The position numbers were made by a program, and so were the translations under genes. From assembly GCA_949841045.1 (NCBI GenBank), contig CATKXS010000008.1, forward strand, positions 1-52,874: 52,874 nt of DNA, written 5' to 3'. This document shows positions 1,099 through 51,396 of the stretch, one piece after another. How positions within the stretch are numbered: the first letter of the stretch is position 1; each line of letters opens with the position of its first letter. The DNA comes from an uncultured Clostridia bacterium. GTDB taxonomy: Bacteria; Bacillota; Clostridia; Christensenellales; UBA1242. The notes beneath the pieces were generated by a model that was not told where the DNA came from, did no database searches, and saw only the letters and a program-made list of their open reading frames with translations.

Positions 1099-1127
1099 TT
1101 GACAATATACTAAGTTTACGATATAAT
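1099..1127 (+). promoter_or_regulatory. promoter of the 1149 gene
   Basis: TTGACA (1099-1104), 17-bp spacer, TATAAT (1122-1127). The leader is predicted at about 15 nt and contains only the Shine-Dalgarno site AAAGGAGAG. Confidence 0.85.
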
Positions 1128-1148: not shown

Positions 1149-1892
1149 ATGAGTTTTGCATCTCTAATCGAATCACAAACACACTTTAAATTAAAAGATA
1201 ACGAGGAATATCAGAAGAAATTAAGTTTCAGAAACACATATAAGGATTTATATGACGACCTATATCTTGATGTTGAAAGCACTTTAGATAATGAGTATGA
1301 TACTTATTATTCTGAGGAATTCATAGCGAACATACAATCAAATTTGCAAAGTTGTGCAAGGAGAATGGCGTGGATAGCAACTTCATTGAATGATAAAAAG
1401 GAAGAATTGAAAGTTATCAATAAAAAATTTTTTAAATCTAAAGCCGAAAAGCTTAGGATTGAAATTTTAAATAAAGATATTGATGCTTTGGAATTGGATT
1501 TGAAGCAAAGTGAAGTTAAAAGACAGTTATGTTTTTCTATCAAAGAAAAAAAAGAAAAATTCAATCAATTTATCAACGAAAATGATTATGACGATGAGAA
1601 GGTTGCTGAGTATTTGTCACAAACTGAAAGAGAGGCAGTAAAAGAAGTTATTCTTGATAATAGCAACAAAAGAGAAGCCGATAATGTAATGGCTTTTGCT
1701 ATTAAAAATGACGGTGTTATGTCAGATGCTTTGACTAAAGAAGTAAAGAATTCTGGGAAATATGCCAAATTAGCATATGAAATGATATACTCTCAAGTTC
1801 AGGATATGGTAATAGAAGAACAAAAAGACAAGATTGATATCGTTAAAAAATCCTTAAAAAATGAAAATGATTTTGAAAGAGAAAACGGATAA
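1149..1892 (+). CDS. unknown coiled-coil protein, family A member 1
   Basis: A 247-residue soluble, highly charged protein of unknown function. Residues about 50-140 are Lys/Glu-rich and predicted coiled coil. No signal peptide or membrane segment is visible. It is a paralogue of the gene at 2494: both carry INEND(Y/F)D..K near the middle, VKEV(I/L)L after it, and a C-terminal G..A..AY..IYSQ..DM-like stretch. The start is set by the strong SD AAAGGAGAG and by a consensus promoter only 15 nt upstream. A terminator follows, so the gene looks monocistronic. I recognise no named domain. Confidence 0.85.
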   Translation: MSFASLIESQTHFKLKDNEEYQKKLSFRNTYKDLYDDLYLDVESTLDNEYDTYYSEEFIANIQSNLQSCARRMAWIATSLNDKKEELKVINKKFFKSKAEKLRIEILNKDIDALELDLKQSEVKRQLCFSIKEKKEKFNQFINENDYDDEKVAEYLSQTEREAVKEVILDNSNKREADNVMAFAIKNDGVMSDALTKEVKNSGKYAKLAYEMIYSQVQDMVIEEQKDKIDIVKKSLKNENDFERENG

Positions 1893-1908
1893 ATAAAGTA
1901 TAATAAAG

Positions 1909-1944
1909 ATAACTTCTATTTTAAATAAAAGAAGTTATTTTTAT
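1909..1944 (+). terminator. terminator after the 1149 gene
   Basis: ATAACTTCT (1909-1917) pairs with AGAAGTTAT (930-938 of this kilobase, i.e. 1930-1938), then TTTTATT. A TATAAT at 1899-1904 just upstream could alternatively make this hairpin part of the next gene's leader. Confidence 0.7.
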
Positions 1945-1959
1945 TAAAGAGGAGTCAAA

Positions 1960-2349
1960 ATGGAAAGTCAGAAAAAATATGTTTGTAAAAATAAAATGGT
2001 CTTAAATTCAAATAATGATGGTATAGATAATAGCGAACATGTAGTGGATATAATTCAAGAGATTGAAATGCTTTATTCTAATATTAAAAATAATACCGAT
2101 ATTGGAATAGAACTTTATAAGTTTAAAAAACAATCGAGTAATGATGGCGATGATATACTTGACGCCATGCAAATTGCCTGCGAAAAAATCATAGAACTTG
2201 AGAAATCTGCCAGCGAAATATATTCAGATTTTAGTGCCATTGTAAAACAGATTGATAGAAAATATGAGAATAGTTTAAAAGAAATCTATCAAAATATGCA
2301 AAAAATTGAAGAAATTTCGCGAAAAACTATGGAAAGTTTATTAAATTAA
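1960..2349 (+). CDS. unknown small helical protein
   Basis: A 129-residue protein rich in Lys, Glu, Asn and Ile, with a likely helical coiled-coil C-terminal half (residues about 60-128) and no membrane segment or cysteine motif. The SD AAAGAGGAG precedes ATG at 1960. It sits between two family A paralogues but shows no clear similarity to them. Expression may come from read-through past the hairpin at 1909 or from the weak TATAAT at 1899. Function unknown. Confidence 0.75.
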   Translation: MESQKKYVCKNKMVLNSNNDGIDNSEHVVDIIQEIEMLYSNIKNNTDIGIELYKFKKQSSNDGDDILDAMQIACEKIIELEKSASEIYSDFSAIVKQIDRKYENSLKEIYQNMQKIEEISRKTMESLLN

Positions 2350-2437
2350 GCAAATTGTTTACATTTTTATATAATTGTTGAGCATTAAAAAAAGGAATCA
2401 ATGCAAATAAAAATTCAAACATTTTGCTTGAAACCTC

Positions 2438-2463
2438 TTGACAAAAGATTGGGGGGGGATAAT
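2438..2463 (+). promoter_or_regulatory. candidate switchable promoter with G8 tract
   Basis: TTGACA (2438-2443) and GATAAT (2458-2463) are only 14 bp apart, and the spacer contains most of a run of eight G (2451-2458). Adding two to four G would bring the spacer to 16-18 bp. This is a layout known from phase-variable promoters in other bacteria. Confidence 0.55.
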
Positions 2464-2493
2464 AGAAATATAAATTTAAAGGAGATAAGTGAT

Positions 2494-3282
2494 ATGGAAT
2501 TTAGAGAATTTATCAATAATAAGGTAGCAGAGAAAATACAAGGTGACGTTAGATACCAAAAGTTAAACGAGTTAGAAAATGAATATTGGCATTTATATAA
2601 TGACGCATATTATATAATACGAAATGGCGAAGAGGTTGTATTGTCAGAAAAAGATTTTGAAAATCGTGACAAAGATTATCTTGAGCAAAGGAAAGAGCAA
2701 CTTGAGGGTTGCGTAGACAAAAAAGATAGCTTGTCTGGCAAGTTAAACAGCTTAAGAATGAATAAGGAAGTTCTCAATAAATTAAGAATTGAACACAAAG
2801 GTTTAATTTTTAAAACGAAAAAGGAAAAAGAATTAGAAAAAGAAATTAAAGATATAGAGCAAGAAATTGAAGAAACTGTAAAAAAATATGAAAGGATTGA
2901 AAAAGTAATTTCAAATATAGAAGAAGAAGTGATAAGTGTTGACGCAAAACTCAAACTTGATGAACTTATAAAAGAAAATGATTTTGACTCTAAGAAAGCT
3001 GAAAAAGAGATGAAAAAAATTGAGTTTTCAAAGGTGAAAGAGGTCTTACTTCAATATAAAGATGAGCCATGTATTTCTGAGCAAATGGACAAAGCTTTGA
3101 AATCTAGCGGCGAAATGGACCAAAGTTTAAAGAAGTTTACTGGTAGACATGGAGATGAACCTGCAGGAAAGGCTTATGTTGCTATTTATAGCCAGGCCAA
3201 AGAGATGACAAAAGAAAACAATATAATATCTAACGAAAATATTGAACTAGAAGAAGATAACGCAGTTGAAAACGCACAATAA
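2494..3282 (+). CDS. unknown coiled-coil protein, family A member 2
   Basis: A 262-residue charged protein, paralogous to the 1149 gene. It shares IKENDFD.KK near residue 190, VKEVLL after it, and the C-terminal GKAYVAIYSQAKEM stretch. Residues about 70-185 form a long predicted coiled coil of Glu/Lys heptads. I choose ATG 2494 because AAAGGAG lies 9 nt upstream and MEFREFINN aligns with the paralogue's N-terminus. An in-frame ATG at 2401 (SD AAAGGA) would put the G8 tract inside the coding sequence instead. Either way the G8 tract could modulate expression. A terminator follows. Function unknown. Confidence 0.82.
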   Translation: MEFREFINNKVAEKIQGDVRYQKLNELENEYWHLYNDAYYIIRNGEEVVLSEKDFENRDKDYLEQRKEQLEGCVDKKDSLSGKLNSLRMNKEVLNKLRIEHKGLIFKTKKEKELEKEIKDIEQEIEETVKKYERIEKVISNIEEEVISVDAKLKLDELIKENDFDSKKAEKEMKKIEFSKVKEVLLQYKDEPCISEQMDKALKSSGEMDQSLKKFTGRHGDEPAGKAYVAIYSQAKEMTKENNIISNENIELEEDNAVENAQ

Positions 3283-3308
3283 ATTATAGAATACACAATT
3301 TTTTAAAA

Positions 3309-3340
3309 AAGATTGCTTTAATTTTAAGCAATCTTTTTTA
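3309..3340 (+). terminator. terminator after the 2494 gene
   Basis: AAGATTGCTT (3309-3318) and AAGCAATCTT (3326-3335) form a perfect 10-bp stem followed by T6. The next promoter starts immediately after. Confidence 0.85.
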
Positions 3341-3369
3341 TTGACAAATAAATAATTGCATGTTATAAT
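3341..3369 (+). promoter_or_regulatory. promoter of the 3394 gene
   Basis: TTGACA (3341-3346), 17-bp spacer, TATAAT (3364-3369). The predicted leader is about 18 nt and holds TAGGGAG as ribosome-binding site. Confidence 0.88.
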
Positions 3370-3393
3370 CAAAATGATAGTAGGGAGATAATT

Positions 3394-4012
3394 ATGAAAA
3401 AAAACCTTTTTTAAAATTATGAGAGATGACTTCGGCGGGCCTTTTGATAGGCCATATGAAACAGGCATTTCGTTTACTGATGAGTTTGTTGCTGAGGATT
3501 ATATTAGAACTTTTAAGGAAAAAGGTGAACGAGGATATTTTTCAATACGAAAAGAGACGATAGAATGTTATGATTCTTTAGAAGAACTTATAAAAGAAAA
3601 TCCGGAAATGGAAATAAAAAGATTGAAAGTAATTAAGGATAACCTTAAAAGAGAAATCGAACTTCCTTTTGAAATAAACTTTGAAGTAAATGATAGGATT
3701 GAAAGAGAAAGCAAATTAAGTCTTGAAGATATAAATAAAATTATTTATGATGTTGAATTTGACATTTCTCGTTTTGATAAAGAGAATCTTGAACTTTATA
3801 GAAAAGCTGAAAAGCCTATCACTTGTTATTTAGGCTGGAATTGGGAAAGAAAATGTGCAATTACTATAAATGACTATGAGACTTTAAAGAAGCTAAGTGA
3901 AAAAAGACAAAAGGAAATTGCCGGTATTGATTCTAAGATAAAGTCTGTAAAGAAAGAAATTAAATTGAAAGAAATTGAGAAAGAAATTAACGAAGAAGAA
4001 AGTGAAATGTAA
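3394..4012 (+). pseudogene. unknown protein, family B member 1, frameshifted in an A8 tract
   Basis: The promoter and SD (AGGGAG) point to ATG 3394, but that frame stops after six codons (MKKNLF). Removing one A from the run of eight A (3397-3404) gives MKKTFFKIMRDDFGG and joins the long frame that is open from 3419 to 4012 (205 residues in total). The corrected N-terminus matches the paralogue at 4132 (MKKAYEVIGKFADDDG). Both share Y(D/N)SLEE...KENP....I.RLK and LPFEI. As written the gene is off unless RNA polymerase or ribosome slippage restores the frame, or an inefficient start at ATG 3419 is used. It could be phase variation, a recent mutation or a sequencing error. Function unknown. Confidence 0.72.
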
Positions 4013-4023
4013 GTAAATAATAA

Positions 4024-4050
4024 AACTCGGATACTTTGTCCGGGTTTTTT
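4024..4050 (+). terminator. terminator after the 3394 gene
   Basis: AACTCGGA (4024-4031) pairs with TCCGGGTT (4039-4046), then T6. Confidence 0.82.
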
Positions 4051-4084
4051 AATAGGTGCACATTTTGTGCTTAAAGAAAAAGGA

Positions 4085-4113
4085 TTGACTTTGAGCATTG
4101 TAGGGTTTATAAT
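4085..4113 (+). promoter_or_regulatory. promoter of the 4132 gene
   Basis: TTGACT (4085-4090), 17-bp spacer, TATAAT (4108-4113). The start point is near 4120, giving a leader of only about 12 nt that is essentially the SD itself. Confidence 0.85.
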
Positions 4114-4131
4114 ATTTGTATGGAGAAAAGT

Positions 4132-4755
4132 ATGAAAAAAGCTTATGAAGTTATAGGAAAATTTGCTGATGATGACGGTGAAAGAGTAAAAACAGAGTTT
4201 GCGTTTGCGAGCGAAAGTCTTGCTAGAGAATATATGGAAAAATATATGGGCGAGAGCATGAGACAAATTTTTACTGTAGAACCTTCTACAAACGTCAAAG
4301 TCTATAACTCTTTGGAAGAAATGGAGAAAGAAAACCCACAACAAGGAATTGAAAGGCTTAAATGCCAGCTTGAAAATATGGACAAAAATGTCAATTTACC
4401 TTTTGAAATTGCAATATCTTATCATAATGAGAGAGGTGAATTAATAAGAGAAAATCTTAAGAAGATGATTTTTGACGACCTTAAAAATTTGATATTTACT
4501 GCTGATATGTTTTATGGTATAAGCGAAAATATAATGACTCAATCATTTTCTTTTGGTTCATTTGCAGGGCATAGAGGAAGTTTGTTTGATGGGATAATAA
4601 TAGATTTCTCTCGCCAACAACTTGACAGTGCGAAAAAGTTTTGCGCCGAATATCAGCATGAACGCGAGAAAATAATGAGAAAAATAAATCTTATTAGAGA
4701 AGGGAAAAATTCTCAAGAGGAAAGTGAAAACGACGACGAAATGGATATTTTCTAA
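4132..4755 (+). CDS. unknown protein, family B member 2
   Basis: A 207-residue soluble acidic protein, paralogous to the frameshifted 3394 gene: MKK start, F..ES.A.EYM near residue 30, YNSLEEMEKENP near 65 and NLPFEI near 90. The C-terminal third is a charged helical stretch that ends in a Glu/Asp-rich tail. I prefer ATG 4132 over the in-frame ATG 4120, because GGAG (4122-4125) is then properly spaced and 4120 coincides with the predicted transcription start. Monocistronic, with its own promoter and terminator. No known domain recognised. Confidence 0.82.
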   Translation: MKKAYEVIGKFADDDGERVKTEFAFASESLAREYMEKYMGESMRQIFTVEPSTNVKVYNSLEEMEKENPQQGIERLKCQLENMDKNVNLPFEIAISYHNERGELIRENLKKMIFDDLKNLIFTADMFYGISENIMTQSFSFGSFAGHRGSLFDGIIIDFSRQQLDSAKKFCAEYQHEREKIMRKINLIREGKNSQEESENDDEMDIF

Positions 4756-4756
4756 A

Positions 4757-4779
4757 AGAGCATAATTGCTCTTTTTTTA
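4757..4779 (+). terminator. terminator after the 4132 gene
   Basis: AGAGCA, loop TAAT, TGCTCT, then T7. The hairpin begins two bases after the stop codon. Confidence 0.85.
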
Positions 4780-4905
4780 TGTCAATAAAACAAAAAAATA
4801 AGAGAAGTAAATTCTCTATTTTGTGTGCAAAGGAAAAGAGAATAGTATATATAGACCAATTTGACAAATTATGACATAATACTTCAGAATAAGCAATATT
4901 CGCTA

Positions 4906-4934
4906 TTTACATGTAATAGTTATTTATGTATAAT
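4906..4934 (+). promoter_or_regulatory. promoter of the 4962 gene
   Basis: TTTACA (4906-4911), 17-bp spacer, TATAAT (4929-4934). Confidence 0.78.
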
Positions 4935-4961
4935 CTTTTTTGTAAAAAAATGAGGTAGGAA

Positions 4962-5204
4962 ATGAGAGAGAAAATAAAAGATTTTTTGAATAATTTTTTA
5001 AGTAAAGAAGGCAAACTTGAAGACATAAATGACGATTATTTTAGGACAAAAGTGAACGAAATGTTGGTTCAAAAAGGAGAGTTCTACACCACTCAAGATG
5101 CCAAAATAATAGGCAATTTTAATGAACAAGAACGAAAAGAATTTATGCAAAAAATGACAAGTTTTTACTTAAAAGCCAAAAATATTACAGAACAGGTCAT
5201 ATAA
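4962..5204 (+). CDS. unknown small protein, family C member 1
   Basis: An 80-residue protein, the first of three tandem paralogues (with 5379 and 5775). The shared pattern is a charged helix with F(R/V)..KV..(M/I)L, then DAKIIGNFNE followed by YLKAK near the C-terminus. Predicted all-helical, with no signal peptide and no cysteine motif. A GAGGTAGG ribosome-binding site precedes ATG 4962. It has its own promoter and a strong terminator. Function unknown; the size and helical repeat-like family suggest a small regulator or interaction module, but nothing in the sequence proves this. Confidence 0.78.
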   Translation: MREKIKDFLNNFLSKEGKLEDINDDYFRTKVNEMLVQKGEFYTTQDAKIIGNFNEQERKEFMQKMTSFYLKAKNITEQVI

Positions 5205-5232
5205 ATTCTTTTTTTAGCAATTTTTAAACAAA

Positions 5233-5270
5233 AAATTTAGTTAATATTTAACTAAATTTTATTTTTTTAC
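5233..5270 (+). terminator. terminator after the 4962 gene
   Basis: AAATTTAGTTAA (5233-5244) and TTAACTAAATTT (5248-5259) form a 12-bp stem with loop TAT, followed by TATTTTTTT. Confidence 0.82.
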
Positions 5271-5311
5271 AAAAAGCGACATGATTTGTTAAAAAATATA
5301 TCAAATAATTC

Positions 5312-5340
5312 TTTACAAAATTAATGTAATTTTGTATAAT
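5312..5340 (+). promoter_or_regulatory. promoter of the 5379 gene
   Basis: TTTACA (5312-5317), 17-bp spacer, TATAAT (5335-5340). Confidence 0.78.
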
Positions 5341-5378
5341 ATACTTGTAAATTAAATTGAGATAAAGGAGGCTATAAA

Positions 5379-5681
5379 ATGAAGAACAATATGCTTAAAG
5401 TTTTGGCAATGAGGGCTAAGAATAAAATGATGATGAGAGAAGATGGACAAGCTAGAATAACTGTAATTAATAGAGATGATGAAGCTTTCGTTGAAAAAGT
5501 TCGCATGATGCTTGAGAAAGAAGAGGTTAACAGTTGTCCTTTAAAATCATTAATGGACGCTAAGATGATTGGCTCTCTTAATGAAAGCGCTAAGGAAAAG
5601 TATTTGCTTGATATTACTGAAAAGTACTTAAAAGCTAAAGAGCAAATTGAAAGTGAAAAATTGAGAAGTATGGCTTTTTAA
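5379..5681 (+). CDS. unknown small protein, family C member 2
   Basis: A 100-residue paralogue of the 4962 and 5775 products. It shares AFVEKVRMMLEKE, then DAKMIGSLNE and KYLKAKE near the C-terminus. The first 25 residues are a basic Met/Lys-rich extension not found in the other two. The SD AAAGGAGG is optimal. There are no membrane segments. No convincing terminator separates it from the next gene, which nevertheless has its own promoter. Function unknown. Confidence 0.78.
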   Translation: MKNNMLKVLAMRAKNKMMMREDGQARITVINRDDEAFVEKVRMMLEKEEVNSCPLKSLMDAKMIGSLNESAKEKYLLDITEKYLKAKEQIESEKLRSMAF

Positions 5682-5724
5682 TTAAAATTTCGACATTACT
5701 TTTTAAAAAGGAATTTTATTCGCC

Positions 5725-5753
5725 TTGCATGACAGATTTATATTATTTATAAT
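5725..5753 (+). promoter_or_regulatory. promoter of the 5775 gene
   Basis: TTGCAT (5725-5730), 17-bp spacer, TATAAT (5748-5753). Confidence 0.72.
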
Positions 5754-5774
5754 TTGTTTATAAGGGGAAGGGAG

Positions 5775-6023
5775 ATGCGTTTCAAGGCTTTCAAGGACTT
5801 TTTTAAAAGTATGCGTGCGGGAAAAGATGATGAACTTGATTTTCGGGCAAAAGTGGAGAAAATTTTAGAAGAAGAAAAAGATTTTCGTTCGCTGTATGAT
5901 TGTGACATACTTGAAAAGCTTAATGAAAAAGAACTTGAAAGTTACATGTATAGCATTTTAAAAGATTATCTAAAAGTCAAGGCTGATTTATTAAATGAAA
6001 AGTCAATTAGAAAAATTGGTTAG
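5775..6023 (+). CDS. unknown small protein, family C member 3
   Basis: An 82-residue paralogue of the two preceding genes: DFRAKVEKILEEEKDF, then DILEKLNEKE and DYLKVKADL. ATG 5775 is preferred to an upstream in-frame TTG at 5754, because TTG overlaps the predicted start point and AGGGG lies at the right distance from 5775. The stop codon is immediately followed by the first palindrome of the 6025-6445 array, which may serve as the 3' end. Function unknown. Confidence 0.75.
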   Translation: MRFKAFKDFFKSMRAGKDDELDFRAKVEKILEEEKDFRSLYDCDILEKLNEKELESYMYSILKDYLKVKADLLNEKSIRKIG

Positions 6024-6024
6024 T

Positions 6025-6445
6025 GTGCATTATGCACTTCCTGTTTACTCCGTTGGTGCTAGTATAGGTATTGTACAGCCAAGATTTGTGCCTTAGGCAC
6101 TGTGCATTATGCACGTTTTGTTTACTTCGTTGGTGATTGTTTGGTTAATGAGTGGCTAAGCCACAGTGGCTTAGCCACTTTTTGTACACTGTGTTTGAGT
6201 TTTGTTTAGTTGCTTAAAAATCAATCTTAGGCAACTTTTATTACTGCGTTGAAGTATGACTTTTGGTTAATTTAGTTGAGGAGTGCAAGAGGCGCTCTTT
6301 TTTCGTGTGTGCATTATGCACTTTGTGCCTTAGGCACTATCTAATCACTTCGTGTGCATTATGCACTTTCTGTTTACTCCGTGTGGCTAAGCCACTTTTT
6401 GTTCACTGCGTTGGTGAGTGTTTGGTTAATGAGTGGCTAAGCCGC
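6025..6445. repeat. array of ten short palindromes with a recurring linker
   Basis: There is no gene in this stretch. It contains GTGCATTATGCAC (6025, 6102, 6309, 6354), GTGCCTTAGGCAC (6088, 6325), GTGGCTAAGCCAC (6152, 6383, degenerate at 6433) and GTGGCTTAGCCAC (6166). A linker resembling GTTTACTTCGTTGGTG recurs near 6043, 6119, 6369 and 6403, and TTTGGTTAATGAGTGGCTAA occurs twice (6140 and 6421). A related cluster is at 11527-11660. It resembles bacterial interspersed palindromic elements. Confidence 0.85.
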
Positions 6446-6449
6446 TTTG

Positions 6450-7073
6450 TTAAAATTGGAAATGAGTTTTGAGGTATTCGATAAACTCTTCTTGTTCGTC
6501 TCGTTCTGGGGTTATATCGGTATTTGGCTGTATTTCAACAACTTCTTTTCCTAAAGATTTTGCATGTTCTATTGTCTTTTTTGTGCCACCTGGTTTGCCA
6601 TCATAAAGAGCGATGATTAATGAAGAATTGTTTACCATATATTCATTTCGCTCTTGCATACATTCCTTGTTATAGGTATCATATAAGCAACGGACCTTAT
6701 CAGCTTTTTCAAGGATTTTTTTATATCTTGCACGAACATGACTGTTCCATTTTGCATCTTGGTCTTGACAAGGCAAAGCACACTCGAGAGTAATGTAAGG
6801 ATATTGTTCTTTAAGTTCTAAAACAAGTTCAGCGCATATCATATCAAAGCCAATGGCCATACCAGATATAAAATTGGTTTTCCCTTGTTTTATAGCTTCA
6901 ATGATTTTTCCCTGAGTCTCTTCTATCATTTTTTTGCATCGAGGGTCATTTTCATTTGCACGCCATGGCAACTTTTGAACTCTATGGCCTGTAAAGCATA
7001 CTGTATTTGAATTAAATTTTTCCATAATTACCTCACATTTTTCTTTTATAAGTTGTATTTTTGTTTTTTCCAT
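6450..7073 (-). CDS. SLOG-family (DUF1273/YpsA-like) nucleotide-binding protein
   Basis: A 207-residue protein with a Rossmann-like SLOG fold signature: CFTGHR near residue 25, F(I)SGMAIGFDM in the middle, and GKPGGTKKTIEHA plus a late hydrophobic strand. These resemble YpsA and DUF1273 proteins, thought to bind nucleotide-derived ligands; molecular function is unsettled. ATG 7073 is chosen because GGAGG lies 6 nt upstream. The in-frame ATG at 7085 is at the predicted transcription start. The gene is divergent from three HTH genes. SLOG proteins are sometimes linked to phage or stress response, which here is only inference. Confidence 0.8.
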   Translation of the reverse strand: MEKTKIQLIKEKCEVIMEKFNSNTVCFTGHRVQKLPWRANENDPRCKKMIEETQGKIIEAIKQGKTNFISGMAIGFDMICAELVLELKEQYPYITLECALPCQDQDAKWNSHVRARYKKILEKADKVRCLYDTYNKECMQERNEYMVNNSSLIIALYDGKPGGTKKTIEHAKSLGKEVVEIQPNTDITPERDEQEEFIEYLKTHFQF

Positions 7074-7094
7074 ACTAACCTCCAACTTAATTTC

Positions 7095-7194: not shown

Positions 7195-7437
7195 ATGAAA
7201 ATATCAAAAGCTGTTACAATGAGAATAAACGAATTGTTGAATGAAAAGGATATGTCTTGGTATAAGCTTGAGCATATAACAGGATTATCAAAAGGAACTA
7301 TAGTAGGTATTCAATATTCTCGTTATAAAAGTTTAAACTTAACTACACTTGTTATTATAATCAGAGCGATTGGCGTGTCAATAGATAAATTCTTTACAAG
7401 TCCTTTGTTTAGTGATGAAAACTTAGAAGTCGATTAA
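7195..7437 (+). CDS. small XRE-type HTH regulator, copy 1
   Basis: An 80-residue single-domain DNA-binding protein of the Cro/CI type. Residues about 7-62 carry the five-helix pattern, with W.KLEHITGLSKGTI as helices 2-3. It is paralogous to the next gene (shared YKLE..TG and FF.SP.F). SD AAAGGGG. It forms a two-gene operon with 7454 (16-bp gap), divergent from the SLOG gene. Targets unknown. Confidence 0.85.
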   Translation: MKISKAVTMRINELLNEKDMSWYKLEHITGLSKGTIVGIQYSRYKSLNLTTLVIIIRAIGVSIDKFFTSPLFSDENLEVD

Positions 7438-7453: not shown

Positions 7454-7696
7454 ATGACATTTAACCAAGCATTTGCTATCAGAGTGAGAGAAGTATTAAA
7501 AGCGAAAAATATGACGCAGTACAAGTTGGAGCAGGCTACTGGCATTTATCATAGTACTATGAATTCTATATTGAACAATAGAACAAGCGCTTCAAATGTA
7601 AAAACCATATCACTTATTATTAGGGAACTTGGTTTATCGCTCTCAGAGTTCTTTGATAGTCCGATTTTTGAATTTGGCAATCTCCATATTGATTAG
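7454..7696 (+). CDS. small XRE-type HTH regulator, copy 2
   Basis: An 80-residue HTH protein. MTQYKLEQATGIYHSTMNSIL forms the HTH core at residues about 20-40, and the tail SEFFDSPIFEFGNLHID mirrors the tail of copy 1. AGAGGGAG precedes the ATG. Tandem duplication followed by divergence is the simplest origin. The two could form heterodimers, or one could be a decoy; the sequence alone does not decide. Confidence 0.85.
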   Translation: MTFNQAFAIRVREVLKAKNMTQYKLEQATGIYHSTMNSILNNRTSASNVKTISLIIRELGLSLSEFFDSPIFEFGNLHID

Positions 7697-8463: not shown

Positions 8464-9051
8464 ATGATGAGTTCAAAAGATGAGTTTTTAGAAATTTTTT
8501 ATGACAACGTTGATAGAGAGGGCGCGGACAAGTTGCTTGAATGGCTTGAGAAGTCTGACTTTTTTGAGGCGCCAGCGTCTACAAGAAGGCACTCTAGTTA
8601 TAAAGGCGGGCTATGCCAGCACTCATTAAATGTTTATAAGAGATTTGTTAAACTTTTACAATGTGAATATGGTGACGAATGGACGAAGCGTGTTTCACCT
8701 GAGAGTGTAGCGATTATGGGGCTTCTTCATGACCTTTGTAAAGTGGACACTTATGTTGAAGATGTGAAGAATGTCAAGGTCGATGGGAAGTGGGAACAAA
8801 GACCTTATTATAGATATGAGGACAGTTTGCCTTATGGTCATGGAGAAAAGTCTGTATATATAATTTCTGCATTTATGAGACTCTCTAGAGAGGAGGCGCT
8901 TGCGATAAATTGGCACATGGGTGAGTATGATATTAGAGTCAAGAACGGAAGTTTTATGATGGCAGACGTTTACTATAAATATCCTATCTGCTTTTTGCTT
9001 CATTTGGCCGATTTGACAGCGACCTATCTTGATGAAAAGAGCGACAACTAA
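8464..9051 (+). CDS. HD-domain metal-dependent phosphohydrolase-like protein
   Basis: A 195-residue protein with the HD superfamily ligand pattern: His53 (CQHSLNV), His89-Asp90 (LLHDLCK), His126 (YGHGEKS), His151 (NWHMG) and Asp183 (HLADLTATYL). HD proteins cleave phosphoester bonds, often of nucleotides or RNA; the substrate here is unknown. ATG 8464 follows AGGGAGAA; the in-frame TTG at 8434 lacks an SD. The spacing and the late Asp suggest an intact active site. It stands alone with its own promoter. Confidence 0.85.
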   Translation: MMSSKDEFLEIFYDNVDREGADKLLEWLEKSDFFEAPASTRRHSSYKGGLCQHSLNVYKRFVKLLQCEYGDEWTKRVSPESVAIMGLLHDLCKVDTYVEDVKNVKVDGKWEQRPYYRYEDSLPYGHGEKSVYIISAFMRLSREEALAINWHMGEYDIRVKNGSFMMADVYYKYPICFLLHLADLTATYLDEKSDN

Positions 9052-17126: not shown

Positions 17127-17930
17127 ATGAGCAAAATTATAATGCTTGGTACTGGGAATGGCGGAACAATTGATTTGTATAATACTTGTTTTGTTGTTCA
17201 AAATGAAAATGGCAATTTTCTAGTTGATACTGGTGGAAGTATTGAAATAATAAAAAGATTAAAACAAGTTGATATTGATTATAAATCAATTCGTCATATC
17301 TTTATTTCACACAGTCACACTGACCATGTTTTAGGTTTATTTTGGTATTTCAAAAAGATAAGTCGTGATGCAATGCATGGCGAGATTTCGGGGGGGGGTA
17401 TAACGATATATTGTAATGACATTGTGTTTGAAACAATAAAAGAAGTTGCAAAACATATTCTCCCAGAGAAACTTATGGATGCAATATATAAAGTTGTTGA
17501 TTTTAAAGTCTTAAATGATGGTGACAAATATCAAATCAACAGCACCCGCTATACATTTTTTGACATAAAAGCCAAAGGAACAAAGCAATATGGATTTGAA
17601 TGTATGCTAAATAATAAGAAATTGGCGTTCTTGGGAGATGAAACTTTAAACCCTGTTTTATATGAAAAAATTAGAAACTTTGATTATGTTATGCATGAAG
17701 CATTTTGTTTGGATTCAGAGGAAAAGATATTCCATGCATATGAGAAAAATCACTCTACAACAAAAAGCGTTAGTGAAGTGATGAATGGATTAAAAGTAAA
17801 AAATTTAATTCTCTATCATACAGAGGATTCTCACAAAGAACAGCGTAAGGAGTTATATACAAAGGAAGCACAGAAGTACTTTAAAGGCAAAGTGATTGTT
17901 CCAAATGATTTAGAAAGTATTGAAATTTAA
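17127..17930 (+). CDS. metallo-beta-lactamase-fold hydrolase, RNase Z-like, with internal G9 tract
   Basis: A 267-residue MBL-fold protein. The zinc motif HSHTDH is at 62-67, FLGDETLNP supplies the later Asp, and HEAF plus NHST downstream resemble the RNase Z/ElaC pattern, followed by LILYHTEDSH. Substrate uncertain: tRNA 3'-processing or another phosphodiester. ATG 17127 follows AAAGGAG. Codons for Ser88-Gly89-Gly90-Gly91 contain nine consecutive G (17390-17398), in frame here. A one-base change would truncate the protein soon after residue 91. Probably transcribed from a weak TATAAT at 17076. Confidence 0.85.
   Translation: MSKIIMLGTGNGGTIDLYNTCFVVQNENGNFLVDTGGSIEIIKRLKQVDIDYKSIRHIFISHSHTDHVLGLFWYFKKISRDAMHGEISGGGITIYCNDIVFETIKEVAKHILPEKLMDAIYKVVDFKVLNDGDKYQINSTRYTFFDIKAKGTKQYGFECMLNNKKLAFLGDETLNPVLYEKIRNFDYVMHEAFCLDSEEKIFHAYEKNHSTTKSVSEVMNGLKVKNLILYHTEDSHKEQRKELYTKEAQKYFKGKVIVPNDLESIEI
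17390..17398 (+). repeat. G9 mononucleotide tract inside a coding sequence
   Basis: Nine G in a row in an AT-rich coding region. Gly could be encoded by other codons, so the run is not forced by the protein. Confidence 0.9.
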
Positions 17931-34953: not shown

Positions 34954-37900
34954 ATGTTAAAAAAGTTGCGTTATAGTTTTATCCTTGCAGTGCTATTCAT
35001 ATTAGTGGGAGGACTTTTCTGTCTATTCCCAACTTTTTCATTTATGAAAACGAGTGCGCTTGGAGAGAATTCTGAAAGCGAAGGAAAAGTCGGAAAAGTG
35101 ACGAGTGGGATTTGGGTGTCAGCTCAAGATGCAACTTTGTCAACTCAAGATACATACTACGGCCATGAAAATGTTTTTGTGATTGAGTCGGCAGAAAACC
35201 TTGCATATATTTCACATGAAGTCAATGCAGGAAATAGCGAAATTGCAAATGGTGTGTTTTTGCTTAGCTCAAACCTTGACCTTTCAGGTGCTTTTTGGGT
35301 ACCAATCGGAACATATGACAATCCTTTCAGAGGAATTTTCTATGGCGCTGGACATACAATATCAAACATTTCAGTTGATGATATTTCAGTCGAAGTTAGC
35401 ACAAAAGTCAACGATTGCTATGAAGGTTTGTTTGGAAGAGTAGATGGCGCGACTATTTGCGACGTTGTTCTATCTGGTTACTATCACTCTCATACAACAA
35501 GCGAGAAAGTTACATATAAAGGCACCTTTGCAGGAAGTATTGCAAACAGCACAATTATCAACTGCTATGACGAGACTCACTCAAGTGACGAGGCTGGCGA
35601 GGAAGTAGCTTCAATTGGCAACTCATTAAATAGCAGAGTGTACGTTGGTGGAAGTCATACGGGCGCTGAAGCAAATTATACCTCACAAGACGCTATTGCG
35701 GGCACTTTGACAGGCGCTCCTATTAGCGGTTATGTTGGCTTCTATAAATCAGGAAGCGGTGAATTCTATAAACAAAATAAAGTTTGGACTGAAAATGCTG
35801 ACGAGGGAAAAGTTGGTGTAGTTTACACAACAGACCTCCAGCCAGCTCCAAAAACAAATTCAAACAAATATTTGAGTTATAATCCACTTCTCAGAAAAGA
35901 CGCTGTTGGAAGTGAAAACGTATATGTTTTACGTAATGGTTATAAGCCAAATATAGAAGAATTTGACGAAACAGATTTTACAAATGGTCTTATTAAAGAA
36001 ATAAGTTACGATGAAAATGCAATAGTTGAAACAACCCTAGATTATCTCTACGGCACTAGAAAGCCAACTCTTGAATTTGAATATGACCAAACTTTTGATA
36101 ATTTCTTTAATTTGGCAAGTAGTGATGGCCAAAGAGGAAATATGAGTTACCTTGATAGACTTGGCTACACATTTGACGGAATTTATAGTGACAAAGATTT
36201 TACTACAAAAGTTTATCCATTAAGCGAGCATGAAGAAAGCGAGTCTGTGACAGACAGAGAGAAAAAAGAATCTGATTTTGAACTTTCATATCCAGCTGAG
36301 AACGAGACTTATTACTTTAAGTGGATTTGGAATAATTCGAGTGAAAACACTAGAAATTTCAGAGTAAAATTCGCATATGCTTCAGATGAAGGCGGACTTA
36401 TTGCAAACAACTTCTCTTATAGCACAGTACTTGAAAATCAACCAACAGGACTTAGAGAAGAGACCTTTGAAAACTTAAATGAGTTTACATCAGATAGTTA
36501 TACCTTCGGCGTAACCTTAAAGGTTGGATACCGTATATCTGCAATTTCTACTCAAACTGGCGAAGTGACTGTGGCTGATAACAGGGCAAATAAGACAAGC
36601 GGAGCGTATGTAAACTTCACATTATATACCGGCGAAGACACAGGTTACAACGTTAATTCTAGAAATAATGATAATTACAATTACGTTAGCATAACTGGCA
36701 AATGGTTAAATGAAGAAAATTATAGTATGAACAAAGAGATTGCAAAATCTTACGAGTTCACACTTGACAATGTAGTTGGTGCGGGCGGTGAAGTTGTACT
36801 TGTAATTGAAAGAGATTATATTGACGTTGACGTCTCTGCAAACTATGTTGCAGAAGGTGACAAAGCTGAAATTTTCTATACAACATCAATCTTGGCTAAT
36901 GGCGATGTTTCAGGACTTGTTCATCTTGATTATGTAAGCACTATTGACGGTGAAACAAAAACAATCGGTTATGGCGAAACAACTGAAAACATGAACGGCT
37001 CTTCAAACCCAGTTTTATATGTAAGGCGAGGTGAGAATGTTAGCTTTAGAATTAGGGTAATTTCTGAGTCAAGATACCTTGTAAGTGAAGTTTACAATTT
37101 CACTTTCCCTCAAGTTGTTGAAATCAAAGCAAAATCTGAGGCGGGTGGAATAAACAAGGATAACGACTATTACAAAATTTGGGATATTGATTTCACTCAA
37201 GTAATTACTTATGGAAGTAAATATAACGTAAATATCGGAAGTGCACAAACAAGAGTTGGCGTCAACCTCTTACTTGAAGGTGCTGATGTTCCAACAAAGA
37301 TTACTGGAATTGATGGAATTGGTGTTAGATTAAATAGCGGCGAAATGCTTCAAAACGTTTCAAATGAAGTTGTTAATCTTGGACAAAACGACCAAATAGC
37401 CGTAACAAAAAATGGTAGATGGCAGGCAGTGAGAGTTGAAGTTGTTTTAAACAGAGACGGTTCAACTGAAACAAGAACTCTTACCTCGGTTGACAAATAT
37501 TTAGAAAACTATTATATCACATCTTGGGGAACAGAAGAGGGTATTGATAAAGTCTTTAAAGAGGCTTACACAACTGACGGAAATGCCGTTTATACTGTCA
37601 ATGTTTACTTTGTAGAAAGGGTATATGACGTTAAAGTTGAATACTATATGCTAGATAGTAACAACAACGCTGAGGCGAGACAAATTCCTGCTGACATGTT
37701 CAATTCAAGATTTACTTCTCTTAGTGCAAGTGGACTATCCTCATTAAAACAAGGTGAAACAGTAGAACTTTCATTCTACTTAAAAGCAATCGCTATGGGC
37801 GCAATATACTATGACCATAACGAAATCGTACAAGACGGTGGCGAAAAAGATAGAACAGGGCATGTAAATAGCGCAATTAGCGAGTCTGTTAGTTCAACAA

Positions 37901-40900
37901 ATGCTGGCGAATATACATTCACTTTGACAAATGGTGGTTATGACAGTACAGTAAAATTCTATTTCAAATATAAATCAGTTAATTTTTCAATTGACAAAAT
38001 TAAAGTTAAAGGCGAAGACGGACTTATTAGTAACGACCTTTATACTTTAAATACAACTCTTACTTATTTATTTACAAATGAAGAGGCAAGAGCTCTTACT
38101 TTAAGTGGCTCGCTCACTTCAATTTCAATCCACTCACAATATTATCTTCTTGGTTGGTATTTAAAGAATGGCGAAATTGAATATTTTGATACATCTTCAT
38201 TTGACGGAATTCTCACAAATTCAGATTTCGTAAATGCTATTGCACTCTCGGGCTCGGGAGAAGGAGCAAGTTATTCTTATAATGAAGTTGCTTCACTTGT
38301 AGGCCGCAGAACAGTTACTGTTGACTATGTTGCGGGCGAAGCTGGTGAAGGCAAGCTTTATGAAAACACAAACATTAGCTTAAACGATGAGGACAAAGTT
38401 CTCGCAGAATGCAATGACAACAAAGTAAATTCAATCAAAGCAACAGGAAATGGCAGTATCGTATATGATGAAGAGCTCACTCTTAGCCTTTACGCATTCT
38501 TCAATCTTGGTTATGAATTTGCAAAATATTCACCAAACTTTGGTGCTATGGTTGGCGAAGTCACAACTGGCAGTTATAAATATGTAATAAGCGGTGACGA
38601 GTGGGATATACTCTTTAAAGCAAATGGTAATATTATAGCTGACGCTGAAAAGCAAACTTGGAACACATTTACAACTACTTCAGCAGATGATGAATACATA
38701 AGAACTGCAAATGTAACTCTTACAGCAAACTGGTCAAAAATTTCATATATAGTTGAATTTGATGGAGAAAATCAAGCAACACTTTCAATCGGTGATTCAA
38801 TTTATTATGAGACTGAACAGGAAAAGAAAGACGGAAGAGCATACTACACAATTTCTGGAAATAATGGTGAACCATATTCAAATGAATATCTTGGTTCAAG
38901 CGGACTGGGTTATATAGTAATCGGCTATAGAATTTCTCAAAAAGAGGGCGGCTTCTATAAAGAGGGCGCTGGCGAAGAAAACATTGTAAAACTTACTCCA
39001 GATATTTTCTTGCAATTCATTAAAGACGAATATAGATTTAAACTCAATAGTGGTGAAGAGCCAATCGCGATTACCACAGAAAGAGAGGCGGCTAAATATT
39101 TCGTTTATCTTGACAATATCTACCCAGAAGAACTTGATGAGGGCTACTTCAAATATATCTGGGACGAAAGTACAAATAATGGTTATGGTCAGGAGGATAT
39201 TGACGGTCAAATCACCCTCAATGTTACATTCGGCTCGGTGCCAGAAAATATAACTAAAGCTCTTGAGAGTGGCACTCTTACCATTGAGAGAAAAGGTTAT
39301 GAATTTGACGGCTGGGCTGTTTCAGACGGCGGCAGACAAATTTCAGTATTTGACACCACAGCAAACTATTCATTCCTTACGGAACTTCACCTTACTCCTA
39401 TTTGGAGACTTAAAGGAACATCTGCTTCTGAATATATCACAAAGGCAGACATTAAATTTGCTGATGATGTGGTAATGCAAGCTGATGGAACATATCATTT
39501 TTGGTTACTAAACTCTTTTGATATTATTGAAGGCTTTTTATCTGGTGACAATGTTGGCGAAAACAACAGTGCATCTGATAGAGAACTCATTCTCTCAAAT
39601 GGTGACAAAGTAACAAGTTATGGCTTTATTTTAAATAGGTCAACAAATTTTAATAGCCAAGACAAATTTAATATTTCTAACTTACTTAGCAGTGGAACAT
39701 ACTATCTCAGTTTTAGAATTACCGTTGAAGATTCACTTTCACGTATTAATTCTTCTGGAGTTATAGTGCCAACCACATACACAACTCAAAGTCGCGAACT
39801 TATCTTTGTAATGGAGAAAAATGAACTTTATCTATTTAATGATAATTTTGCAACTATATATAATGGTACAGAAGAATTTGTTGCTTCGCCAAATAATGAG
39901 TACGGTCAATTTGTTTATAGATATGACTGGAATGGCGCTGACAGGGCAGACCTTGACGTAGAGACGCTAGTAGCAGAGGGTGAAACAAACGAATACTTTA
40001 ATAACTTCAAGGTTGCTGATGAAAATGGCGACTTTAACGCTACAACTGGAAAGACAAAAACTATCAAGATGAAATTAAACCTTGACAAGTTTGGCTCAAA
40101 TCTTTATGAAAACTTACTTTTAAATATTACCAAAGAGGGAAATGATTATTATCTTTCTCTAGATAGTCGTTTAAAAATTGAGAAAGCAATCTTTGCAATC
40201 TCATTCCCTAAAGGCTCTGGATATTTACTAGAAAATGAAGATACTATTGTATTTTCTAATAATAGGACATATCAATTTAACGTAGGGCAGGTGACATTCA
40301 CATACACCTTTGACAAAATCGTTCTGCCAAAAGAAAAGGAAGCTGGCGTTTATGCTGGTCAAGAAGATTATGCCTTAGATAGCTCGAACTTCAGAATAGA
40401 TGGACTTGTAATCGAAGGACATGAAAGTGACTACGATAACAATTTTGAGTGGGTTATTGCAAAGGGCAGTGAAACAGCAAACACATTCTCCCTTCTTGAC
40501 ACATCTTCAGCCCAAATTCAATCTTATGTTGCAAAATATTTGCGTGCTGAAAATGGACAATTACTTGAGCTTGAAGACAATTACAAAGGCGTCTCAGAGA
40601 ACATTTATCTCTCTGGAGTTGTTGTGAATGGCGAGACAATGGAAATTAGCGGACTCAGTCAAGGCTCTTTCCTTGTTGACAATGATGTCATAATGACATA
40701 TTCAGGTAATGGAACAAAAGAATTTAAGGTTTATATAAATAAAGCTCTTCTTAGCGGAGATAACACCTTGTCATTTACTCTTTCTCTTGAAATGACTAGT
40801 GCAAGAGAGCAGGCTCTTAAACTTCTCACTGTCGCAAGAGAAGAGATGTCAATGGAGCTTATTGAGGCAAGCTTCAATGACGGCTACAAAGAGAGTTACA

Positions 40901-43900
40901 GCTATGAAATTACTCCAAACGCAGGTGACGGCAACAGAGTAAATCACATTATCCTTTCAGACGTTGTAAAAGTTTATGTAAATTACAATGGCGGAACTAA
41001 AGAAAACGAAAGCATATATGTTTCAGCTGGTGGCGGAAATGCAACAATCATAAACTCACCAAGCAGTTCAAAATATCTTTCTTTTGACCAATATGCAAGA
41101 GTTCAAGGAAGCAACCTTGCTCTTACAAGAGGAACAGGAAGCTGGGACGTAAGAGCAGTTAATGTTGGCAACAGCGAAACACTGACAGCTCGTTGGTCAT
41201 TCAATTCCTTTGATTTAGCACTCGTAAGTAATCAAATAGACCTTTTTGCAAACGAAAAAGGAATAAATCTTGAAAGAAACAAAGTGATAAATCTTGAGTA
41301 TCCTGAAGAGGGTATTACAAACAAAATTATCACGTTGAATAGTAAGGACGGACAATATAGCTTCAGTTATTCTTTAGCTGATGACATGTTCTTGATTGCT
41401 GGCGAGAAAGGTTATGCTCTTCCTAGCGTGAGCGGAACCTACACAGTTACAGTCAGCCTTACCTACTCAGACAACGCTGGCGTACCTCAAACTATTACAA
41501 AAAATACCGATGAATTTGAACTTGTTATTTCAATTAACACAATTGATTTAGAATATAACGGCGATGCTCTTGTATTCAACAACTCAGTTCAAGAGGGCAT
41601 TGCATTAGATTTAGTATTGAATGGTATAGATAATGGAGAGGCAATTCTTCGTTATATTGAAAAAGTAGACAATGCTGGCTCTGATTTACATTTCTATTTG
41701 AAGAGTTTGGTTGATAGCGAAAACAAGGCAAGCGAGCTCCGAAATGCAGACACGTATACTCTTACTTTTGCAATCGACAGCGATTTGACTGAAATGTATC
41801 AGTTCGCTGGTGGAACAACAGAAACAACAATCAATCTTAATATTGCTCAGTTTACAATCGTGCTTTCTAAGTATCAAGAGCAGTTAAACCTTTCAAAATA
41901 TGTTGGCGCTGATGACCCAAATCCAATTCTTGGAAATATCACAATTGGTGAAAACAATAATGACCAAGTTCTCATGATATTTACAAGACAAGCGGGCGAG
42001 AGCGTTGGACGTTATCAACTTTCATACTCAGACCTTTCAAGTGCAGAAGACAAGATTAACTATACAGTTGACTCGCGAGGCTTCAACGCTTTGTACAATG
42101 TAATCTCACTTGACCCAGACATTGATAAGTCAGAATATGAACTTATCATTGCAATTGACAGACCTCTTGAGATTGTTTATTCAAAAGAGGGAATTGTGTT
42201 TGACACAAGCTATAATTTTGAATTACAAAAATGGATTATAAGCTATCAGGGCGCAAGCTCAACAATTTCGCTTAGCTACAAAACCGATGAAGGGGAAACA
42301 GCAGTAGGCGGAGCAGAGTGCAGACAAGACCTTAACGATTTAGCTTTGAAAGCTCTTAATGCTATAAACGTTGGCTCATATACAGGAAGCGATATTGTAG
42401 TAGAAGGCGGTGAAGGCAGATTTAAGTCATATACCGTTAGAGGAAATTTCAATATTATCCCTCGAACTATAGAAGTCGAAAACATTGAAAAAATATTCGA
42501 TGGAAATGATACTTTATATCCAGAAAATGTAACCTTTGCTAACCTTGCAAATGGTGACGAACTTACTTTAAGCGGAAGATTTATTCAAAGCACAGTAGGA
42601 CAAAACATTCAAATAGCCGATGTTGTTTTAGGCGGAAAAGACGCTGAAAACTATACATTTGGCTCTTACACTGGAAAGATTACACCAAGACAAGTTACAG
42701 ATGTTAAGTTTAAACTTAATAATACAAACTTTACTTATGGTGGAATCGCTCAAAATAGCTCAATTTCAGACATACTTGCTTTAGGTGGCGGTTATGTTCT
42801 TGAAATTACCTTCAAACTTGATGACAATACTTCTAAAACAATTATTCTTACTGAAAATTCAAGCGGTGAGGAAGCAAACTTTGCAAGAATTGACTCATTC
42901 AGGCTTGCAAGCGATGATGTTTCAAATGCTGGCTACTTAAAAGCCGGAAACAATAGGACGATAAGCTTTATTATAAGTTCTTCAAACTTTACTAATCTTG
43001 AAGCAGGCTATGATATAATAGCAAATGTTGACAAACTCGAAATCGACCTTTCAAGCATAGATATTATAAAAAGTTATGATGAAAATGCTCTTCTTCCAAG
43101 CGACCTTGTAACGAACATAGACGCCTTTGTATTTAATGGTGATAAAGTAGTTATTGATTTAACGAACAGCTCATATGAAAATGCAGAAGTAGGCTATGAT
43201 AAACCAGTTACAATCGTGCTTGCTGGGGACGATAGCGCAAACTATAGAGTTAAAGACAATGTAAAAGGTGGAATTACTGCCTTTACAATCAAACTTAAAG
43301 TTAATCTTGAAGAGATTGCAGACCTTGTTTCTAATGGTGCTTTCGTAGACGATGGAGTAGGTCTCCCAACAACAAACTATGACTTATATTCACTCGGCTA
43401 TCCTTCAAGAGATACAAATGAAGCTCTTATCGAGAGTCTTATGGCTTCAAATAGAATACCAACAAGACGCGGGTATACTCTTGAAGGCTGGACTTATTTG
43501 AATGGCAGTGATTATGTAATGATTACCTCATCAAATATCGTTGAACTATTAAAGAGTGTTGCCGAAGACGAAACAAACGCGGATAAAGAAATCAATATTT
43601 ATCCTCGCTGGCAAATTAACAAATACCTTGTTGATATTTCACAAGAAAACATTGCAAGTGTTAAACTGACAGCAACAAAAGGAAATTTAATACGTGCAAA
43701 CGAAACAAACGAAGAATACTTTACAGGCAGCGAGGTTAAGTTTGAAAGTGGCTACACTTATTATGTAGAATACTATTCAGACCTTAAAGTAGAATTTACT
43801 TGCAATAATGGTCTTAAAATTAGGTCATTCAACCTTATCAGCGGTGAAACAGTCAGCCGTGACCTTACAAACACAGGAGAAAAGAGTGGAGTTGTAACTC

Positions 43901-51366: not shown

Positions 51367-51396
51367 TTGACTTTTTTCGGAGGGGGGGGGTAAAAT
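51367..51396 (+). promoter_or_regulatory. candidate phase-variable promoter with G9 tract
   Basis: TTGACT (51367-51372) and TAAAAT (51391-51396) are 18 bp apart, and half of the spacer is a run of nine G (51382-51390). Changes in run length alter the spacing directly. Confidence 0.65.

Follow-up and report, generated by a model that had tools for sequence, protein, structure and literature searches.

Most of what is known of phase variation by repeat slippage comes from mucosal pathogens, and in Campylobacter and Neisseria the tracts concerned lie mostly within reading frames. The tracts treated in the excerpt of one report concern coding genes (PMC2831843), and for porA of Neisseria meningitidis the available portion of another gives high expression with a run of 11 G, 2.2-fold lower expression with 10 G and 13-fold lower expression with 9 G (PMC3639595). 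Among the open-licence PMC papers searched, some of them judged by title, the trait is not described for Christensenellales or for the bacteria considered here. In this work we analyse a stretch of 52,874 bases (contig C8, hereafter the window) of an assembly of 1.16 Mb in 34 contigs that is 95% complete; in it, a block of tandem paralogues (1149..6023) lies between an rRNA operon and a gene that we take from its sequence to encode an HD-domain-like hydrolase (hereafter the HD gene), and one member of the block, A2, carries a run of eight G in its promoter spacer. The related genomes belong to an order that is presumably Christensenellales. We consider it quite probable that the block is a tandem-duplication hotspot and that the promoters with slippable spacers, that of A2 among them, form a surface-diversification phasome, and we lean, with less assurance, towards the view that the order uses slippable G or C runs, which hold promoter spacers 1–2 bp off the optimum, to regulate some of its lipoprotein and surface repertoire, tandem paralogue arrays having been captured by this control.

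Homopolymer tracts in promoter spacers

A2 (2494..3282; this and all other genes and promoters of the block are on the plus strand) encodes a family A protein of 262 amino acids and is preceded by the promoter TTGACA-14-GATAAT (2438..2463), the spacer of which holds a G8 run (2451-2458) that overlaps the first base of the -10 hexamer. With a spacer 3 bp short of the optimum and a -10 hexamer that reads GATAAT, A2 is predicted to stand in a low or off state in this assembly. The initial annotation had remarked on homopolymers at control points, and this remark is its most valuable part, as the architecture that includes the G8 run recurs across the order; within the large set of tract promoters, A2 counts as a weak member.

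The own genome contains 55 overlapping matches to GGGGGGGG, which represent 29 G or C tracts of 8-10; 17 of these lie in promoter spacers (flanking hexamers of at least 10/12 together), seven in long open reading frames (ORFs), two in what look like promoters that have lost one hexamer and two (L157 and L169) in what by eye resemble frame-interrupted relatives of the gene at L161, and one is intergenic. Sixteen of the 17 spacers are shorter than 17 bp (14 bp in two, 15 bp in nine and 16 bp in five) and one is of 18 bp. A second tract promoter in the window, TTGACT-18-TAAAAT with a G9 run (51367..51396, plus strand), precedes an exported-like ORF of 481 amino acids.

Across the genus, the pattern TTGAC-N(1-11)-G7-N(0-6)-TANNNT gave 356 raw matches in 63 of 112 genomes (3 for the control, that is, the same pattern reversed) and its C version gave 310 in 66 (control 5), so that 82 of the 112 genomes carry one or the other. 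The G version, which was the one used outside the genus, gave 525 matches in 108 of 371 genomes in the rest of the order (control 5), mostly in families f32, f20, f15, f1 and f3. The class beyond the order yielded 21 matches in 18 of 216 genomes against 8 for the control, so the excess is small, and the phylum beyond the class yielded 36 in 32 of 208 against 25, which is near background. One genome of the genus, G032, has at least 24 distinct tract promoter sites among the matches listed. A near-identical G-run promoter is repeated many times per genome in G032, G075, G095 and G008, as if a module had been copied to positions ahead of different genes.

We collected 71 distinct tract promoters from genus sequence, 36 with G and 35 with C runs. 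Their spacers measure 15-16 bp in 55 cases and 17 bp in 10, whereas tract-free promoter-like sites of the same sequences have 17 bp in 132 of 196; spacers of at most 16 bp account for 57/71 tract promoters versus 35/196 tract-free sites (p about 7e-21). In family f20, the deviation has the opposite sign: among the 43 of 54 sites in the matches listed that have a good -10 hexamer, 33 have spacers of 18-19 bp and 3 of 17 bp, and a hand-picked sample from f15 and f20 gave 29/37 and 2/37, respectively, against 17 bp in 25 of 39 tract-free sites of the order loci. Because the optimum is avoided on opposite sides, which is not predicted for a neutral run, these data favour a tunable spacer.

An ORF lies within 200 nt of 63 of the 71 genus promoters, and by a hydrophobicity rule its product is exported-like in 39 of these 63, against 36 of 126 baseline genes; the hand-picked f15/f20 sample gave 23 of 30, and by eye many of these show a lipobox-like LAAC. 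Tract promoters recur before related genes in different species, in both G and C forms (a family of eight). Identical flanks enclose tracts of different length at L206 (G8) and L183 (G9) and at L247 (G9) and L244 (G10), and the matched strings of G014, G075 and G099, where the match itself was compared, also differ by one base.

On these grounds, we suggest that the set may represent porA-like slipped-strand phase variation across the order. Mispairing of slipped strands would add or remove a G and thereby shift the distance between the -35 and -10 hexamers around the 17-bp optimum, and the shifted spacing would turn transcription up or down in a heritable and reversible manner, as for Neisseria porA. 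With the spacing held on the short side of the optimum in the genus and on the long side in a second family, slippage by a single base could set expression, and the set may form a surface-diversification phasome of gut Clostridia into which the cytoplasmic-looking A2 has been drawn.

The 481-amino-acid ORF of the window is related to an ORF of 577 amino acids with a G9 promoter on contig C28 (L176), and tract promoters at L174 and L176:2019 seem to be short of one hexamer, as if promoter modules had been copied and were then decaying. The tracts at L157, L161 and L169 (C5:63446, C7:1532 and C13:1146) are 9-10 long, have look-alike contexts and lie, by eye, near the end of a signal-peptide-like stretch; their genes possibly encode frame-switching exported proteins. 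In the window, a G9 run (17390-17398) within a frame that we take to be metallo-hydrolase-like (17127-17930) is a possible site of translational slippage.

The paralogue block and its interval

The window begins with the 3' end of a 23S rRNA gene, which is followed by a 5S rRNA gene and then by the block, that is, A1 (1149..1892; 247 amino acids, a soluble acidic protein by composition), X (1960..2349; 129 amino acids), A2, B1 (3394..4012), B2 (4132..4755; 207 amino acids), the diverged copy C1 (4962..5204; 80 amino acids), the core copy C2 (5379..5681; 100 amino acids) and a second diverged copy, C3 (5775..6023; 82 amino acids). Hydrophobic segments are absent from all eight proteins. The seven tandem paralogues in three families that had been proposed for this block are real, with 30-35% identity (30% for A1 and A2) and every within-family pair scoring above 200 of 200 shuffles: 204 for A1/A2 (best shuffle 97), 150 for B1/B2 (70), 81 for C1/C2 (44), 89 for C1/C3 (53) and 92 for C2/C3 (50). 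The eighth gene, X, had been overlooked between A1 and A2; it has a 47% identical homologue in L049, and in other species its relatives lie before the HD gene. The start given for B1, at 3394, needs correction, as that frame stops at 3412-3414, directly after an A8 run (3397-3404), and the conserved frame is open from 3419 to 4012 (197 amino acids); the homologue in G038 (L026, 204 amino acids) has a longer, intact N terminus. As A runs of at least eight are not rare in the window (six, beside three such G runs), the A8 run means little alone.

Sigma-70 promoters with a 17-bp spacer precede five of the seven paralogues, 18-38 nt before the start codon, which bears out the proposal of mostly private promoters. 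A1 (1099..1127) and B1 (3341..3369) both have TTGACA-17-TATAAT, a 12/12 match, and 11/12 matches are found for B2 (TTGACT-17-TATAAT, 4085..4113) and for C1 and C2 (both TTTACA-17-TATAAT, 4906..4934 and 5312..5340). Promoters of at least 11/12 precede 5 of the 8 block genes versus 13 of 126 other genes of the genome, many of which must lie within operons (Fisher p 0.001), and occur in 2 of 2400 shuffled upstream regions. A2 and C3 are without a standard promoter, the best candidate for C3 being a 10/12 match with a 16-bp spacer 86 nt upstream. For the private terminators that had also been proposed, folding gave hairpins with U-runs 3' of A1, A2, B1, B2 and C1 and no convincing terminator hairpin after X or C2, and a scan for consensus terminators found within the block only that of B2, with several more in a palindrome array after C3. 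This anatomy suggests that each copy with its own strong promoter and terminator would be transcribed on its own. The array itself (6020-6443) consists of short palindromes (GTGCATTATGCAC, GTGCCTTAGGCAC and GTGGCTAAGCCAC) with related spacers between them.

The HD gene (8464..9051, plus strand) is the right border of a variable interval. Through it we fetched 58 named loci, in 56 of which it is 57-86% identical and in the remaining two 44%; the records are named as uncultured Clostridia or Firmicutes, 'Christensenella sp.' or, in one case, Candidatus Caccopulliclostridium, and some titles contain 'Lapin', 'Water_deer_Cecum' or 'Horse_feces'. The rRNA and HD genes share a contig in 16 sequences (15 loci and the window), where the interval between them ranges from 1,005 to 9,128 bp. 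Upstream of the HD gene, a profile finds X-like genes in 22 of the 58 named loci (immediately before it in 17), and B-like genes occur in 4 and C-like genes in 3. By BLAST, with the C trio left out of the count, a local paralogue was found for 19 of 74 interval ORFs of at least 80 amino acids, these lying in 5 of the 16 intervals, versus 0/98 for the parts of these sequences that lie downstream of the HD gene and 0/110 for six hand-picked segments of the own genome. The block thus exemplifies a hotspot of local duplication that recurs, in line with the local expansion first read from the window, and neighbouring paralogy argues for duplication in place rather than for an integron cassette array, although no search aimed at attC sites or an integron integrase was made. 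In G010, a promoter with a run of eight C precedes the first gene after the rRNA operon (L048/L085), and in G029 a separate promoter with a run of nine C stands before each of two adjacent paralogues (L221); tandem copies, private promoters and slippable spacers therefore co-occur elsewhere in the genus.

The families differ in their distribution. A profile of the three C copies of the window matches 97 of 112 genus genomes (E<=0.1), and a 19-sequence core profile matches 224 of 396 order genomes (E<=0.01) from 64 of 142 genera. ORF calls gave a C gene in 17 of the 20 loci that were retrieved from other genera, and in 11 of these 17 it adjoins an rpsU-like or UvrD/PcrA-like helicase gene; four have both neighbours, in the run prmA, rsmE, mtaB, hint, rpsU, C, helicase and ligA (names that we presume from the sequences). 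Given this presence across the order and these conserved chromosomal neighbours, C2 is an old gene. It adjoins the rRNA operon in the window genome, G010 and G043, and has the same gene order in G038, but there the contig ends short of an rRNA gene; G010, G038 and G043 also have C3-like copies alongside it. Family B is restricted, its seed profile finding 8 of 112 genus genomes, the own included (E<=0.1), and an iterated search revealing that B-like genes form arrays in G047, G056 and G074. Family A, found at E<=0.1 in 3 of 112 genus genomes counting the own, is rarer still; G038 carries another tandem pair of it. The initial annotation had seen in the three families one accessory system; core C, often in a conserved setting, is not merely accessory, and the relatives carry A, B and C in differing combinations and places, which lends no support to their working together as one system.

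As had been noted, no known domain is recognised. Scans of all eight genes against Pfam, PHROGs, NCBIfam and PADLOC gave no accepted match, nor did family B and C members against Pfam or their profiles against PDB sequences. The C2 model is helical and of modest confidence (mean predicted local distance difference test score (pLDDT) 73.2), and the B2 model, which is good (mean pLDDT 86.8), has no convincing match to solved folds. Known anti-phage defence was considered and rejected, the best PADLOC E-value being 0.00098 for C1 against a Cas2b model (17.5 bits, residues 20-67), a match not common to C2 or C3. A type II toxin-antitoxin system was likewise rejected, as only A2 reached RelB/ParD, at 14.5 bits versus a cut-off of 60.

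A further tandem pair lies just beyond the block, namely XRE1 (7195..7437) and XRE2 (7454..7696; both on the plus strand; score 158, best shuffle 51), presumably small helix-turn-helix-like regulators. The variable interval also holds a gene on the minus strand (6450-7085) that we take to be SLOG/DUF1273-like and that weakly matches ShosA (E 9e-05, 19.9 bits). Upstream of the block, positions 748-800 repeat the 3' end of the 5S gene with its terminator (581-633) at 72% identity, probably a remnant of a duplicated 5S gene. Elsewhere in the window, an ORF of 4,549 amino acids (34954-48603) has, by eye, a signal-like N-terminal stretch and a C-terminal hydrophobic segment, and is likely to encode a giant surface protein.

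Competing explanations

We suggest that the block, lying between the rRNA operon and the HD gene, is a hotspot of lineage-specific tandem duplication, in which the conserved, small and helical C2 and the lineage-restricted A and B may have been duplicated, have diverged and have mostly been given their own strong promoter and a terminator. An ordinary cluster of orphan genes, drifting after tandem duplication and with promoters and a G run that have no adaptive role, would agree with the lack of any domain or function found, with the patchiness of families A and B and with the interrupted upstream frame of B1; we nevertheless regard it as unlikely, given that strong promoters are kept in five of the seven paralogues, that 5 of the 16 intervals contain local paralogues and that B arrays recur in three other genomes. 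We give very little credence to the families being cargo of a mobile element or prophage that targets the rRNA operon. The position beside this operon, the variable content and a G+C content of 0.303 versus 0.352 in the rest of the window are what such cargo might show, but the best PHROG E-value among the eight genes is 0.0089, scans of IMG/VR found no relatives of B2 or C2 (A and X were not scanned), no integrase- or transposase-like ORF was recognised by eye in the interval and C2 is a conserved chromosomal gene; prophage genes were rejected as a candidate.

A different objection concerns the tracts themselves, which might be fixed promoter elements (a binding site, or stiff DNA that sets promoter strength) of constant length during growth. 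One promoter sequence is indeed reused many times in G032, G075 and G095, and the tract lengths of the genus are narrow (7-10 in the sample, 8-9 in 63 of the 71 promoters), which could suit a fixed structural element too. Set against this, G and C runs serve equally (36 versus 35) and at varied distances from the hexamers, two families have spacings on opposite sides of 17 bp, copies that share their flanks are one base apart in tract length and 7 of the 29 own tracts lie within long ORFs, so that we rate fixed elements as improbable, slightly more so than drift.

For slippable spacers at a duplication hotspot, the explanation that we prefer, this narrowness of tract length is one of several unfavourable points. 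Tract lengths were compared between species only, with one assembly each, and the named genomes are metagenome-assembled, in which homopolymer length may be wrong; two lengths were seen in only 2 of 142 distinct flank pairs, that of A2 not among them, few flanks being comparable. Some sites are read twice among the raw pattern matches, and the 63 downstream genes include mutual orthologues. Neither version of the pattern occurs in 30 of the 112 genus genomes, a group that includes several of the near-complete genomes of smallest size (such as G016, G053 and G063), and beyond the order the class has a few sites that look good (G587, G632 and G699). Within the hotspot, tracts of at least seven occur in only 3 of the 16 intervals between the rRNA and HD genes, one of them outside a promoter, so that tract promoters are rare there (2 of 16). 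A2 itself is not exported-like, unlike 39 of the 63 tract-promoter genes, and its promoter falls outside the strict search pattern because its -10 hexamer begins with G.

Comparison with described systems

The present work sets a conserved gene, C2, apart from lineage-specific duplicates, and it places a hallmark of phase variation in gut commensals of animals, a large and mostly uncultured group, with up to about twenty tract promoters per genome of about 1 Mb and few outside the order in the sample searched. If our explanation is true, existing metagenome reads should show mixed tract lengths at defined promoters, and the tracts would let these bacteria present heterogeneous surfaces to host and phage.

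The closest likeness is to porA of Neisseria meningitidis, in which, from the part of the source available, a G run also lies in a sigma-70 promoter spacer, of 9G-11G there and mostly 8-9 here (PMC3639595). As with that gene, an exported product is the common case here, with A2 as a departure. The differences are that the present bacteria are gut Clostridia rather than a Gram-negative pathogen, that many promoters per genome are concerned instead of one, that G and C runs are both used and that switching here is inferred from sequence. The repeat phasomes of Campylobacter and Neisseria, as far as the consulted portions of the reports describe them, resemble the present set in having many homopolymer-linked, probably switchable genes in a small genome (PMC6321876, PMC5953494); here, unlike there, 17 of the 29 own tracts lie in promoter spacers. 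With the ON/OFF replication slippage of pili in Bifidobacterium breve, which the excerpt of the source describes for two pilus clusters of one strain, the set would share switching by slippage in a Gram-positive gut commensal, whereas here it is promoter spacers, many genes and many genera that are involved (PMC9187656).

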